From an uncultured Alphaproteobacteria bacterium (lineage in GTDB: Bacteria; Pseudomonadota; Alphaproteobacteria; MPNO01; UBA2964), in NCBI GenBank assembly GCA_951812775.1, contig OX638326.1, positions 3,715,001 through 3,779,000 on the forward strand: a DNA stretch of 64,000 nt, written 5' to 3'. The notes below the pieces were generated by a model that saw only the letters and a list, made by a program, of their open reading frames with translations, made no database searches and was not told the DNA's origin. Shown here piece after piece: positions 1 to 7,203 of the stretch; within the stretch, counting starts at the first letter, position 1; each line of letters opens with the position of its first letter. The position numbers and the translations under genes are program-made.

Positions 1-621
<621 letters not shown>

Positions 622-640
622 ACGTGTTCGTGCGTAGTGG

Positions 641-672
641 CAAGCCCAAGACACTTCAAGCCCAAGACACTT
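641..672. repeat. Perfect 16-bp tandem duplication in the 23S-5S spacer
   Basis: CAAGCCCAAGACACTT at 641-656 is repeated exactly and without gap at 657-672, between the 23S end and the 5S gene. It lies in transcribed spacer, so it breaks no gene. It belongs to the same class of event as the 31-, 13- and 8-bp coding duplications elsewhere in this window. Confidence 0.95.
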
Positions 673-726
673 ATTGTTACCAACTTTATATTGTCCGGAA
701 TTTCGGTTTCGGCCAGGACATTTCCT

Positions 727-878
727 CTATTACGCGCTGGGTTGACCCGGTGATTATGGCGAGGGGGCAACACCCGATCCCATTCCGAACTCGGCCGTGA
801 AGACCCTCAGCGCCGATGGTACTGCATCTTAAGGTGTGGGAGAGTAGGTCGTTGCCGGGTCTACCCAGCGCGTAATGG
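727..878 (+). other. 5S precursor processing stem (flanking inverted repeat)
   Basis: TACGCGCTGGGT at 731-742 is the exact reverse complement of ACCCAGCGCGTA at 863-874. The pairing extends outward to about 727/878 with a single G-U pair. The two arms bracket the 5S gene and continue its terminal helix, so the precursor can fold into a long double-stranded stem. Such stems are typical RNase III/RNase E processing substrates. The structure is seen in the sequence; the processing role is from general knowledge of rrn maturation. Confidence 0.75.
745..860 (+). rRNA. rrf: 5S ribosomal RNA
   Basis: A typical alphaproteobacterial 5S begins acccggtgattatggcgag and ends gtcgttgccgggt. The terminal helix pairs ACCCGG (745-750) with CCGGGT (855-860). 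Internal landmarks include cacccgatcccattccgaactc (loop B/C region) and the gatggtactgcatctt and gtgggagagtagg segments. Length is about 116 nt. It lies about 120 nt downstream of the 23S end, in the usual rrn order, and before tRNA-fMet. Confidence 0.95.
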
Positions 879-935
879 ATGAAATGAAAAAGCAATCTTC
901 TTTACAATGATAAAGAGCTGAACAGCTCCGGAACG

Positions 936-954
936 GGCCGGAAACGGCCTTTTT
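936..954 (+). terminator. Rho-independent terminator after the 5S gene
   Basis: Stem GGCCG (936-940), GAAA tetraloop (941-944), stem CGGCC (945-949), followed by TTTTT (950-954). It sits between 5S and tRNA-fMet. Some transcripts may end here, and the tRNA would then be reached by read-through or by its own promoter. A second small stem, AGCTG-aa-CAGCT, lies just upstream around 916-927. Confidence 0.7.
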
Positions 955-982
955 GGGTTCTGGCTCGAAGTTTAGGATTTGA

Positions 983-1059
<77 letters not shown>

Positions 1060-1415
1060 TCCGGCGTACCGTCCGATTCCTGCCAATCCAAGCGGGGGCT
1101 GGAGGAACCCTAGGTCCGGTGCGTTTCATTTGTCAAGACAGGCAACGAGAACGGGGGCCGTCCCAAAGGCATTTTGGGCGGCCCCCGGCCAGCCGGTTCG
1201 TGCTTCTTCCGCATTCCCCGGTCCATCGCTATCGGACCAATACGGCGGACTCACAGTCGCGTTCAAAGTCCCGCGAATCTGAGTCCTGGCCGGCCCGCTG
1301 TCAAGGGGCAATGCGCAGAAAACACGTCCGCCGGCGTTCACCGGGCGGTTTAACCCGCCATGGACACACATCCCCACGACCATGCCGCCGGCGCTGCCAG
1401 CGTTCAACTTCCCGT
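1060..1415. other. No gene seen; strong GC hairpin at 1153-1186
   Basis: The stretch after tRNA-fMet shows no credible start, ribosome site or family-like protein in any frame. The long frame that crosses it on the plus strand is a GC-rich open frame with an Arg/Ser/Pro-rich, non-protein-like translation. The one structure is an inverted repeat at 1153-1186 (GGGGGCCGTCCCAAA pairing with the TTTTGGGCGGCCCCC arm around a short loop). It has no T-tract on the plus strand, so it is either an rrn-distal structure or a remnant terminator. Confidence 0.5.
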
Positions 1416-1686
1416 TCGCGGCCCGCCTACTTCTCGCCCTCGGACGACTGCGAAGCGGATTCCTGGGCGACGCAATCCACGCTGTTCGACGAAGAGGCCC
1501 TCAATCTGGCGCTTTCGCAGCTGTGCTCGGCCGAGGACGCGCGCCGGCACGCCATCGAGGCGGCGTTCGCGCGGCGCCGTGCTCTGTTATGTGCCCCACG
1601 GACACGACGCCAGCGTCACCGTGCGGGACGGCAAGATCACGGCCGCCATCGCGGCCCAGGACGGCACGGGCGAAAGCGTCGCCTGA
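1416..1686 (+). pseudogene. Frameshifted ORF fragment, family not recognised
   Basis: Two adjoining frames look protein-like and read as one broken gene. The first covers roughly 1428-1590 (it includes YFSPSDDCEADSW and LFDEEALNLALSQLC, then IEAAFARR). The second continues as AVLCYVPHGHDAS and TVRDGKITAAIAAQDG to a TGA ending at 1686. The shift lies near 1575-1590. No good start codon is visible upstream. Family unknown. The GC-rich composition matches the neighbouring mobile-type genes up to the IS5 element and differs from the rest of the window. Confidence 0.45.
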
Positions 1687-1772
1687 ACATCGCTGCACAA
1701 CCACCAACGCCGGCCGCCATCATCGCACGGCAACGCCGGTTCCAGCTTGTGACATCTACACGGAGCCCCGCG

Positions 1773-3527
1773 ATGCCCGCCATCGACCACGCCATCCAGG
1801 CCGCAATTATCCAGGATCTCCGCCCGCCGGCGGTGCTGAGGCGCCAGATCGCCCGGCTGCGCGAAGACCTCCATTGCGGCCCGCTTTATCTCGACGCCGG
1901 CGGCGCGCGCGGCAGCCCGTTCGACGAAGACGCCGATCACAGCTTCGATTTTACGCGCGCCGCGGGCATCGTCGCCGCCTGGCTGGCGGACAGGCCGTCG
2001 CCGCTCTATTACGAGACCTGGTCCGGCTGCATCGTCGCCGATCCATGCGAGGCCGGCAACGACACCGGCAGCGAAGACGTTGGTGAAGCCTGCACGCCGG
2101 ACTGGCGCGATTATATGGAACTCGACCGCGCCACCCTCGCCAGGGCGCTCGGCATCGCCATGGCGCAGCCGGCCTTCCAGGCGAAGGACCTGATCGAGCG
2201 GCACGATGTTGCCGTGATCAGCGGCAACATCGAATTCTACACAGACATGAGCGGCCGCGTCATGGACGCGCTCGCGGAACTCGTACCGCGCACCGAGCCT
2301 TATTCAATAGATGAGTGTTTTCTCGATCTCTCGGGCCTCGCCCAGGACCCCGATCCCTTCTGCCGCGAGGTCAAGGACAGGGTGCGGCAATGGATCGGCG
2401 TGCCGATCAGCATCGGCATCGCGGAGACCAAGACCTTGGTCAAGCTCGCCAACCGCATCGCCAAGACTTCCGCGAAAACCGGCGGCGTGCTCGATCTCGC
2501 CCACCGGCCCGACGGTTGGCTGCGCCAGGAGCTGGGCGTTACCGGCCTGCGCACGGCGCGGGAGTTGCGGGGCGAGGACTGCATCGGGTTCGAGGACCGG
2601 CCTAAGCCGCCGCAGAGCAAGATGGTCTCGCGGTCGTTCGGCGCGGCCGTGCGCGACCGCGACGTGCTCGCCGACGCCATCGCCTCTTTCGCGACGGACG
2701 CGGCGAAGAGCATTCGCGAGGCCGGGCTGGCCGCCTCGCGGATCACCGTCTTCATTGAGACGGGACGGTTCGCCAAGGGCCGCCGCCACGCGGGCTCCAA
2801 GACCGCCGCGCTGACGCCGCCGACGGCGGCTGCCGCGCCCATCGTGCGCACCGCCCACGCGCTTCTGCGCGAGCTCTTCAAGGCCAACCGCGCCTACCGC
2901 CGCGCCGGCGTGACCTTCGACGGCCTGGTCGATGGGGACGAAGCCGCGCCAAGCCTGTTCGATACGCCCGATTCGAAGGATGCGCGCCTCACCGCCGCGC
3001 TCGATACCATCGCCGCCCGGCTCGGGCCCGACGCCATCCGCTACGGGCGGGCCGCACCGGCAAGACCCGGCAAAACCGGGCAGACCCCGCCGGACGGGCC
3101 GGGAGTCAAAGGAAAGCGGGGGAGGGACGAGGCGCCCCGGGGCCCAAGGGTGCGGGAGAGACGATCCCCGCCGCACCGCCTCGCAACCCCAACGAGACAG
3201 GAGGAGACGACAGATGTTCGAACCCGACATTGCCACCCGCGACGACGACGCCCACGGCCTCAACGATTACGGCTTCAACGATTACGCCGGGCCGTTTCCC
3301 GGCAGCCTGCCCGACAACTTTCCCGGCTCCGGCGAACTGCTCGCCGAGATCGGCCTCCCGGCGCAGACCATCCGCGCCGTTCTGGGCTCCCGGGGCTTTC
3401 CGGGCGAGGCCGGCGCGAGCCGCTGGGGAGAGTGAGAGAAGGGCTAAGAGAAGACGAGGGGAAGGGGGATCGGGAGAGGTTCCCTTGCTCTTCATCACCC
3501 AACGTCACGACGACACGTACATCATAG
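1773..3527 (+). pseudogene. Chimeric ORF: hypothetical protein fused to a deleted umuC (Y-family polymerase)
   Basis: The part starting MPAIDHAIQAAIIQDL at 1773 is a roughly 125-residue hypothetical protein (phage/plasmid type) with a YYETWSGC segment. At about 2140 it runs in frame into UmuC sequence at LARALGIAMAQPAFQAKDLI, continuing with YSIDECFLDLSG (catalytic Asp-Glu pair) and PISIGIAETKTLVKLANRIA. The UmuC N-terminus with its first catalytic Asp is absent. The helix-hairpin-helix segment normally between GGVLDL and WLRQELGV.GLRTARELRG is deleted. The C-terminus stops matching after about 3055 (lacking the usual SPRYTT-type end), although the frame stays open to 3527. It cannot be a working polymerase. 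Two deletions in one gene point to decay of a plasmid/ICE-type SOS polymerase. Confidence 0.7.
3214..3435 (+). CDS. Small hypothetical protein, 73 aa
   Basis: ATG at 3214 follows an excellent ribosome site (aggaggagacgacag). The product starts MFEPDIATRDDDAHGLNDYG and is acidic and Asn/Tyr/Gly-rich in its first half, with a more ordered second half (ELLAEIGLPAQTIRAVLG). It overlaps the open tail of the umuC chimera in another frame and is about 100 bp upstream of ssb. Composition and context suggest a mobile-element accessory gene. No family is recognised. It is the only gene in the GC-rich stretch that looks intact. Confidence 0.55.
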   Translation: MFEPDIATRDDDAHGLNDYGFNDYAGPFPGSLPDNFPGSGELLAEIGLPAQTIRAVLGSRGFPGEAGASRWGE

Positions 3528-3537
3528 GAGACTTGAT

Positions 3538-4061
3538 ATGTTCGGACTGAACAACGCGCAACTGATCGGCCGCCTCGGCGCCGACGCCACCATCAATAGC
3601 CTCAACAACGGCGGCCGGGTCGCCAATATCTAGATCGCCACCGACGAAAGCTACATCGACCGCAACTCCGGCGAGGTCGTGGAGCGCACCGAATGGCACC
3701 GGGTGGTGAGTTTCCAGGAAGGCGTCGTGAACATGCTGGAAAACCACGTCCGGAAGGGCCGCCTGGTGTTCATCTCGGGCAAGCTGCAAACCCGCAAGTG
3801 GCGCAAGGACGGCGAGGACAGCGACCGCTACTCGACCGAGATCATGATCGTGCCGGGCTCGCGGGTGCAGTTCCTCGACAAGGCGAACGCGACCGGCGCG
3901 GCTCCTCGACAAGGCGAACGCGACCGGCGCGGCTCCTCGACAAGGCGAACGCGACCGGCGCGGCCAACGGCGCGCAGAACGCCGCCCCCGCATCGGGTGG
4001 GGCATCGGGCTCCACATCGGACGAAGCGACGGGCGAACTCGACGATTCGATCCCGTTCTAG
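3538..4061 (+). pseudogene. ssb: Single-stranded DNA-binding protein gene, disrupted twice
   Basis: The frame opens MFGLNNAQLIGRLGADA at 3538, a standard SSB OB-fold start, and continues through IDRNSGEVVERTEWHRVVSF and GRLVFISGKLQTRKW. Codon 32 is an amber TAG (3631-3633), where SSBs carry a residue just before the IATDESY strand. After VQFLDKANATGAA an exact 31-bp unit occurs three times (3872-3964). The two extra copies add 62 bp and throw the C-terminal tail out of frame. The correct tail, ending DDSIPF (the acidic tip that recruits partners), is still encoded and stops at 4061. With one repeat copy and a sense codon at 3631 the protein would be a normal-length SSB. As it stands the gene is inactive. 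Being GC-rich, it is probably an element-encoded ssb and not the chromosomal one. Confidence 0.88.
3872..3964 (+). repeat. Three exact 31-bp tandem copies inside ssb
   Basis: Units at 3872-3902, 3903-3933 and 3934-3964 are identical, each beginning TCCTCGACAAGGCG. Since 31 is not a multiple of 3, each added copy shifts the frame. Restoring a single copy joins the SSB body to its DDSIPF tail in frame, so one copy is the ancestral state. The unit has no CRISPR-like spacer and no terminal inverted repeats. Confidence 0.97.
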
Positions 4062-4088
4062 CGCGGGCCTCCTCCCTCCCGCGACCCT

Positions 4089-4109
4089 CGGGGCCGGCCC
4101 CGTTTTTTT
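4089..4109 (+). terminator. Rho-independent terminator after ssb
   Basis: CGGGG (4089-4093), CCGG loop and CCCCG (4098-4102) form a strong hairpin followed by TTTTTTT (4103-4109). It lies 28 bp after the ssb tail stop and would end the transcript carrying the small ORF at 3214 and ssb. Confidence 0.8.
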
Positions 4110-4134
4110 GCCGCCCGGGCAAGGATATCCCCCC

Positions 4135-4312
4135 ATGCGGCGCATCACTGGCGAGACCGCAAGCAAGCGCGTCAACAAGGCACCGGGCACCGAGCACCCG
4201 TTACTCATCTATCCGCGAAACACCAAATACGAACTCGCTTTCGCGCAGCCCTATCTGGAAATGATCTCATCGTTCCAGTCCTCGATCCGCGAGCGCGACA
4301 CCGGTTGGACAC
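4135..4312 (+). pseudogene. 5' fragment of an unknown gene, cut by the IS5 element
   Basis: An open frame begins MRRITGETASKRVNKAPGTE at 4135 and continues with YPRNTKYELAFAQPYLEM to IRERDT, after which it runs into IS sequence. About 59 native codons remain. Composition is GC-rich like the umuC and ssb remnants. The conserved look of the N-terminus suggests a plasmid/ICE-type protein, but no family is recognised. The rest of the gene does not appear on the other side of the IS, where a histidine kinase begins instead. Confidence 0.5.
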
Positions 4313-5587
4313 CTCGAAGAACGTTCGGTTTGGCCGCTTGCGGCGTGATTTGACCGGGTGGGCGCGTCTGAGTGTCGGTTTTTTCGAGCCGTTTTGCGTC
4401 GATTTGATCGGTTTAGCCGGTCGAACCGGCCGTTCCGGCGTCATGTGGGCGCACTTCGCCCCTGGAGCCAGAGGAAACGGCGCATGTTATACGCCAGATT
4501 GGTCATGCCGATCTTGGCCTCGGCCCGGGCGATGCCGATGGTCCGAACCGAGAGCGCCATCAAGCCTTTCTGATGGGCGAAGACATGCTCGACGGCGGAG
4601 CGTACCGCCGAGCGCGCCGCGTTGGCCTTGGCCAGGGTCGCCGGCATCGGCTTGCCGCGCGGCTTGCGGAAGTGGATCTGGGAGCGCTTGCCTTGGCGCG
4701 CCAGCATCTTCTCGTTACGCTTGGACCGATAGGCGGTATCCGCCCAGACCGGGCTCGCCGTGTTCTCCGGATCGATCAGACCGGCGAGCTGGCGGCCGTC
4801 ATTGGCGGCGGCATCGGTGACGCGCCACTTGCGGATCAACCCGTGCCGCCGGTCCGTGGAGATGTGGTTCTTGTAGCCAAACGCCGGCACCATGATCTCC
4901 GGCCCCTTGGGGCGCCCATCCTCCAGACGCTTCACTCGGCCACGCTTCATGGTCCAGCGCGCATCCCGGTCTTTCTGGGCCAGCTTGGCCGGCTTGTCCT
5001 TCCACTCCTCTGGCACCTTGCCGGCCTTCAACGCCACCTTCTCCGGAACGCTGTTGCGCTGCCTGGGCGCCGCGACGATCGTGGCATCGACGATCTGGCC
5101 CGACAGCGCCAGGTAGCCATGGCCGCGCAGGTGTTCGTCGAAGCGATCGAACAACGCCTCGATCGCCTTGGCCTGCACCAGCAACTCACGGAACAGCCAG
5201 ATCGTCTTGGCGTCCGGCACCCGGGCGTGAAGCCCCAGGCCCAGGAACCGCATGAAAGACAGCCGGTCGCGGATCTGGAACTCGGTTTGATCATCCGAGA
5301 GATTGTATAGTGCCTGCAACACCAGGATCTTGAACATCAGAACGGGGTCATAGGGAGGCCGGCCACCCTGGCGCCGGTCCGAGCGACGTAGCACCCGGAT
5401 CAAGGGCCGGCGAAACAACTCGAAATCGACCAACTCACCAAGCCGAAGCAACGGATCACCCGCCGCCGACAGTGCCGCGTAACGCTCATCAAGATCGAAA
5501 AAACCGGGCTGATCCGACATTCCATCCTCCATCAAGCCGATGAGAGAAGTGAAGCAGATCATGGCCAAAATGACGAGGTTTTTAGAG
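4313..5587 (-). mobile_element. IS5-family insertion sequence (boundaries approximate)
   Basis: A single transposase gene is flanked by imperfect terminal inverted repeats. The left end reading inward starts CTCGAAGAACGTTCGGTTTGG (about 4313). The right end reading inward starts CTCTAAAAACCTCGTCATTT (about 5587). Both share CTC.AA.AAC and a TTTGGCC block. Total is about 1.27 kb, normal for the family. The flanking sequences do not join into one gene: the left flank is a truncated GC-rich ORF and the right flank a truncated histidine kinase. No obvious target-site duplication is seen, so this copy marks a rearrangement junction. Confidence 0.85.
4441..5520 (-). CDS. IS5-family transposase
   Basis: The 359-residue protein starts MSDQPGFFDLDERYAALSAA. 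It has the DUF772-type N-terminal segment (RGGRPPYDPVLMFKILVLQ-like, here QGGRPPYDPVLMFKILVL), then the DDE catalytic core: Asp in GQIVDATIVAAPRQR, Asp in WADTAYRSKRNEKML, and Glu in SAVEHVFAHQKGLMAL with the following family Lys region. Length is standard, with no frameshift, so it should be active. Upstream the frame stays open into the kinase remnant, which is fortuitous read-through across the IS end, not a fusion protein. Confidence 0.95.
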   Translation of the reverse strand: MSDQPGFFDLDERYAALSAAGDPLLRLGELVDFELFRRPLIRVLRRSDRRQGGRPPYDPVLMFKILVLQALYNLSDDQTEFQIRDRLSFMRFLGLGLHARVPDAKTIWLFRELLVQAKAIEALFDRFDEHLRGHGYLALSGQIVDATIVAAPRQRNSVPEKVALKAGKVPEEWKDKPAKLAQKDRDARWTMKRGRVKRLEDGRPKGPEIMVPAFGYKNHISTDRRHGLIRKWRVTDAAANDGRQLAGLIDPENTASPVWADTAYRSKRNEKMLARQGKRSQIHFRKPRGKPMPATLAKANAARSAVRSAVEHVFAHQKGLMALSVRTIGIARAEAKIGMTNLAYNMRRFLWLQGRSAPT

Positions 5588-7203
5588 GCGCCCACCTGGC
5601 CAAAAAGACCCAGTGCCTTCGGAATATCCTCAAGCGAAATACCTATACCGGTATCTTCGACCTGGAACACGTATCCCCTTGAATCGCTATACCAAGTCGT
5701 CAGCGAAACAGACCCGCCCCAATCTGTGAACTTTAACGCGTTGGAGAGCAGATTAATGAGGATTTGTCGCAATTTTTTCTCGTCCGCAAATAGTGGTGGC
5801 AATTCTTTGGGTGTATCTACGGTAAGATCAACCTCGGATCTCTTGGCCTGATCGTGAAGCATTCTGGTAATGCTTCGGATGGTTTCGTGCACATCGATCC
5901 ATTCTTCATAGAGCTCTTCGTTTCCGGATTCTATTTTTGAAAAATCGAGAACATCATTACTGAGTTCAAGAAGGTGCCGACCCGCGTCATTGATATCGCG
6001 GGCATAGTCACGATATTTTATGCTGCCGACTGGGCCAAATGTTTGCTCCCTGATGATGTCTGAAAATCCCATGATGGCATTCAATGGAGTACGTAATTCA
6101 TGACTCATATTGGACAGAAATTCTGATTTCGCACGACTGGCGTCTTCTGCCATGTCACGGGCTTTGGTTACCTCATCGGTTGTTTTCATCAGGGCATCAG
6201 TTTGGACCTCGAGTCGTGCTTTCGTTCTTTGTAGTTCGATGAATTTGGTGTTCATCTCTCGTTGGCTCTCTTCCAATCGACGTTCAAACTCCATGTGGTC
6301 AGTGATGTCGAGACCGAGCGCGTCGCATACCGTCACATTGTCCTCGCGTTTCCGCGGACGAACCAACAATCTGAGCCAAAGAACATTTTCGGTTTCTGAC
6401 CTAACGCGAAAATTCTTGGTCACAGGTTCTCCGGTGCGGGCGCATTCATCGAGTGCAAGGAGCAGGCCCCGCCGGTCTTCGATTTGAATATTGCGAAGCA
6501 GGCGGCGGGGAGCTTCGATGAGTGCCTCGCGGGTTTGTCCGGCGATTTTGGAGACGCCGTCACTCATAAATGTAAGGGCTTTTTTATTGTCCGCCGTTAC
6601 CGACCATTGCAGAACAATACCGGGGATGTTGGCGGTTAGGTTCGATAGGCGTGCGTGTGCTTCCGTGTGAGCGTCGATAGAGTTGCGGTGCTGTATCGCC
6701 AGACTCGCGAGATCTTTAAATTCACTGACGATTTCAATTTCAGCCTCTTCGGGAGATCCTGCGGTCATTCGGTAAATTGCGAAGGTTCCAATGACGCCGC
6801 CGTTTCCGGAATGAATAGGTTCAGACCAGCAGGCACGTAACCCGTGAGTGCGGGCGAGAGCGACAAAATTTCTCCATTTGGCATCAATCGTAATATCTGG
6901 TGTGATTACCCGTTCACCGAGAGCAGCGGCAGTCCCGCAGGTTCCTGAAGACGGGCTGATCTGCAACCCGTTTATTGCCTGATTGTAGCTGTCCGGCAGG
7001 CTCGGCGCGCCCCCATGAATTAATCGGTTTCCACTGGGAGCGACCAGTTGTATCGCCGCTTTGGTTCCTGGTAAGCGCTTTTCGACGGACTCACAAATTT
7101 CTGCGAGAACAGTGTTTAGCCGTTCACCTTGCGCGAGCAAGCGGACAATGGATTTTCGCGTCGACACGGAGTCTTCAAAAAAATTTCCGAAAGAAACGCT
7201 CAC
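5588..7203 (-). pseudogene. GAF-PAS sensor histidine kinase, C-terminus cut by IS5
   Basis: From the N-terminus: a GAF domain (about residues 15-190, with GTCGTAAALGERVITPDI and ACWSEPI typical of phytochrome-like GAF), a PAS domain (about 200-320), a coiled linker, a HisKA dimerisation domain with the phospho-acceptor His in NMSHELRTPLNAIMGFSDII, and a HATPase_c domain with the N box LINLLSNALKFT and G1 box VEDTGIGI. The sequence stops at LGLFGQVGAS, so the G2 box (GTGLGL) and the last strands of the ATPase are missing. Kinase activity is probably lost. The first codon overlaps the stop of the upstream Sel1-repeat gene by 4 bp, so the two formed an operon. Confidence 0.85.

Follow-up and report, generated by a model that had tools for sequence, protein, structure and literature searches.

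A doubly disabled ssb pseudogene in a probable remnant of imported DNA beside an alphaproteobacterial rRNA operon

INTRODUCTION

An ssb sequence in the genome of an uncultured alphaproteobacterium has a stop codon in its OB-fold and, where its acidic tail begins, a perfect triplication of a 31-bp unit that throws the tail out of frame. Is this a gene in decay, or a repeat-based switch by which an SSB gains and loses the tail that recruits its partners? Here, we analyzed the gene, its neighbors and its relatives. The window is the whole 64,000-nucleotide stretch of contig OX638326.1 that contains the locus (positions 3,715,001 to 3,779,000); coordinates below are those of the window unless another locus is named, and features lie on the forward strand unless stated otherwise.

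RESULTS

The ssb reading frame is broken at two places

The ssb pseudogene occupies 3538-4061. Translated with an X at its one internal TAG, it matched Pfam family PF00436 over 98-99 profile positions, at 84 bits against a cut-off of 26. From the ATG at 3538, the frame runs for only 31 amino acids before the premature TAG at 3631-3633, which lies within the OB-fold; by the Pfam match, the OB-fold continues in the same frame 3' of this codon, and that frame is open and conserved. Farther along, at 3872-3964, are three identical tandem units, TCCTCGACAAGGCGAACGCGACCGGCGCGGC, with no partial fourth copy. Compared to a single unit, the array adds a net 62 nt and the frame is lost, such that the SSB linker and acidic tip at 3963-4061 (...ELDDSIPF; tail ANGAQNAAPASGGASGSTSDEATGELDDSIPF, followed by TAG at 4059-4061) are encoded in a frame other than that of the body. 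The amber codon and the three exact 31-bp units described in the original prediction were therefore both confirmed in the sequence, and together they support its claim that ssb was inactivated twice.

Because of the TAG and the 62 extra nucleotides, no continuous ORF joins the OB-fold to the tail, and the DDSIPF tip is encoded, but in the wrong frame. The distance from VQFL to the stop codon is 182 nt, which is not a multiple of three, while the corresponding segment is 33-47 residues long in 23 full-length relatives. These tail lengths fit a one-unit ancestral state, in line with the earlier proposal that removing 62 bp rejoins the body to the tail. The frame is preserved only at repeat copy numbers of 1, 4, 7 and so on, or one count in three. 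As it stands, the locus is predicted to be capable of yielding only a 31-residue fragment, whatever the copy number.

Neither lesion is a feature of the ssb family

We compared the gene with 27 ssb relatives, most of them accessory genes that occur in several copies in Defluviicoccus-like bacteria. Where this copy has the premature TAG, Ser is encoded in 24 of the 27, Asn in two and Gln in one, and the tails of all 27 are free of tandem repeats, with a longest self-match of 9 nt. Neither lesion is thus a family feature; both disabling changes are missing from the homologues, which was the outcome of the comparison with related ssb genes that had been proposed as a check.

The closest ssb DNA, at 70-80% identity, comes from family f2, genus g5, a group of Defluviicoccus-like, order-level relatives with 2 to 17 ssb matches per genome; more distant relatives are found on Roseomonas plasmids (~70% DNA identity). 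Three genomes (G013 and G024 of genus g5, and G039) each have at least 12 ssb matches, many of them at contig ends or on short contigs, which suggests that many mobile elements coexist there, each with its own ssb. One relative (L003) has as its neighbor a primase-like gene (toprim/DUF7146), and a SLOG-family gene is found farther on; such a set of genes would be consistent with a mobile element. In two other loci (L019 and L022; 4527-4616 and 4908-4997), ssb is preceded, 381 bp upstream, by a partial duplication, a second fragment of the SSB N-terminus.

A separate observation concerns the MAG p16x34bins.43, in which ssb at two loci (L010:4697-4799 and L017:5240-5382) is cut immediately after ...QFLD by an identical sequence starting GTGCGACATGAAG. 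In L017, the interrupting sequence was identified as a group II intron (D1-D4-7) using Rfam. Apparently, both loci carry a group II intron at the SSB core/tail junction that removes the acidic tip unless spliced. Since the intron sequence was not found in our genome or in five g5 genomes, a retrohoming scar at this ssb is unsupported, and we rejected that explanation.

The 31-bp array is not a chance repeat

The period-31 self-match runs for 62 nt, whereas in 200 shuffles no period from 10 to 119 gave a run longer than 10 nt; the array is thus not due to chance. To set it against the genomic background, 400 kb were sampled from the same genome as 20 stretches of 20 kb. These contained 21 perfect tandem repeats with a period of at least 10 (~1 per 20 kb), the largest being 35 bp x 2.2, and none with a period of 31 or more in three copies. 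By this measure, the array stands out more than any other such repeat seen in this genome; it covers more bases than any of the 21 sampled repeats but is of the same kind. Elsewhere in the window, a 16-bp exact tandem duplication is found at 641-672, between the 23S and 5S rRNA genes.

The ssb lies in a G+C-rich island between an rRNA operon and an insertion sequence

The left border of the island is the 3' end of an rRNA operon (1-1059), comprising 23S rRNA (1-623), 5S rRNA (746-860) and tRNA-Met (983-1059), as identified using Rfam and ARAGORN. The 500-1500 stretch was found once in the 4.15-Mb single-contig genome, and the operon is the only rRNA operon copy detected. The 5S rRNA gene is flanked by a 32-nt inverted repeat (719-750 and 855-886; 91%) that is probably an rRNA processing stem.

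The island itself spans ~3.2 kb (about 1060-4304). Its G+C content is 67.3%, compared to ~50-53% in its surroundings; the value is 49.8% in the part of the window past 5600 and about 50-54% for most of the genome stretches sampled. Searches of eight further genomes of the genus did not recover the island, and such matches as there were stopped at the tRNA. On the right, it is bordered by an insertion sequence with a DUF772/DDE transposase on the reverse strand (4305-5594; Pfam), of which the genome holds about 22 copies with 97-100% identity. Directly adjoining it on the far side is a GAF/PAS histidine kinase gene reduced to its 5' part. Over 4305-7203, the insertion sequence is fused to this gene, which is truncated within the HATPase domain and whose 3' part is absent from the other side of the element; this arrangement suggests an insertion sequence-mediated rearrangement. 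A repeat search over 1-5700 did not show the tRNA end duplicated in an att-like manner, and no integrase or replication gene was identified in the 3.2-kb island. Collectively, the foreign G+C content, the failure to find the island in the eight genus genomes and the insertion sequence border give 1060-4304 the appearance of a small imported remnant.

A neighboring umuC-like gene is also wrecked

Upstream of ssb, at 2134-3107, is the remnant of a umuC-like Y-family DNA polymerase gene, with Pfam matches to IMS, from profile position 40 onward only, and to IMS_C. Aligned to an intact 419-aa homologue (L087), the remnant is missing ~47 residues at its start, including the catalytic N-terminus, as well as 40 internal residues, and it is joined in frame to unrelated upstream sequence. 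Homologue searches returned nothing for the 132-aa frame upstream of the remnant or for a 73-aa open frame at 3214-3435, which is preceded by a ribosome-binding-like GGAGGAG. The umuC lesions make ssb one of at least two wrecked island genes and, being independent, point to an island that is dispensable and decaying as a whole.

An intact chromosomal ssb is present, and the loss appears recent

The original prediction called for a search for a chromosomal ssb, and one was found at 258161-258466 (L001): an intact 162-residue frame with its own acidic tip, ending DLDDEIPF. The island ssb is predicted to be redundant with this gene. Its third-codon G+C content is 0.93, compared to 0.86-0.95 in relatives. 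On a rough estimate over 80 codons, pN/pS is 0.31-0.39 between the island ssb and its relatives and 0.00-0.37 among the relatives; values in this range indicate that the sequence was under constraint for most of its evolution and that its loss is recent. The retained codon constraint and unameliorated G+C content suggest that import and inactivation may both be recent, which agrees with the earlier view of the event as a recent one.

DISCUSSION

We consider the ssb at 3538-4061 to be a pseudogene, probably without function, in a decaying, horizontally acquired remnant, and assign this reading a probability of roughly 0.88. An accessory ssb of the Defluviicoccus-like type would have entered the chromosome beside the rRNA operon together with plasmid-type DNA, represented by the umuC-like gene. 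With the chromosomal ssb making it redundant, the imported copy would have been free of selection and would have decayed: a spontaneous point change would have produced the TAG at 3631, and replication slippage or template switching may have triplicated the 31-bp stretch where the tail begins. We infer both this sequence of decay events and a plasmid as the route of import.

An error of sequencing or assembly is an unlikely alternative. If the real gene were intact and the TAG, the triplication or both were erroneous, the good conservation of the OB-fold, including the residues around the TAG, would be expected, and an array of exactly three whole units without a partial copy would fit as well. 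Such a reading requires errors at both independent lesions in one gene, however, and the adjacent umuC carries larger, different lesions; the assembly also contains perfect tandem duplications of other lengths, at a rate of about one per 20 kb. Still less credible is recoding, in which an amino acid would be inserted at the TAG at 3631 and the tail would be regained through a frameshift. The open, conserved frame 3' of the TAG is what such decoding would leave, but recoding would have to occur twice, in separate events, the relatives encode an amino acid, mostly Ser, at this position, and the tail frame itself terminates with TAG, which makes read-through of that codon unlikely.

The original prediction had also raised the possibility that an unstable repeat count toggles the acidic tail. 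Exact tandem units at the core/tail junction, in frame at 1, 4 or 7 copies, are what would be expected of such a switch, and the prediction itself recognized that the amber codon prevents switching in this copy. Indeed, the TAG lies upstream of the array and stops the protein in every repeat state, so that no repeat count gives a full-length product. The array, absent from all 27 relatives, is neither conserved nor variable among them, only one count in three restores the frame, and the island, umuC included, is decaying. We therefore did not retain the switch, which we regard as very unlikely. Equally unlikely is a hot spot at the core/tail junction where accessory ssb genes would repeatedly have their acidic tail detached, with tail-less SSB variants a part of element biology; the cases are the triplication described here and, within ~8 bp of the same point, the group II intron at the two MAG loci.

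Read as a pseudogene, this ssb is a case of ordinary gene decay, and our literature search returned nothing specific to the locus. Beyond annotation, there is little importance in an imported ssb found at an early stage of decay in a chromosome whose own, intact ssb makes it redundant. It also serves as a warning that a frame-breaking repeat should not be taken for a switch until neighbors and relatives have been checked.

Among known systems, phase-variable repeat genes, as generally understood, share with this locus a coding-region repeat unit that is indivisible by three, but here a long unit is present in three copies, the relatives are repeat-less, and an upstream stop makes switching irrelevant. 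The OB-fold is 66-78% identical to those of Defluviicoccus-like accessory SSBs, the plasmid- or mobile element-borne members of PF00436, and the [D/E]xIPF-type tip is common to both; the relatives have open frames with a 33-47-residue tail, whereas this ssb stops at residue 31 and its tail is frame-broken. From general knowledge, pseudogenes in decaying imported islands offer the same premature stop, frame-breaking tandem duplication and neighboring deletions, along with the same insertion sequence at the border and an intact chromosomal counterpart. Nothing essential sets this ssb apart from them, its perfect 31-bp triplication being somewhat larger than the usual duplications sampled here.
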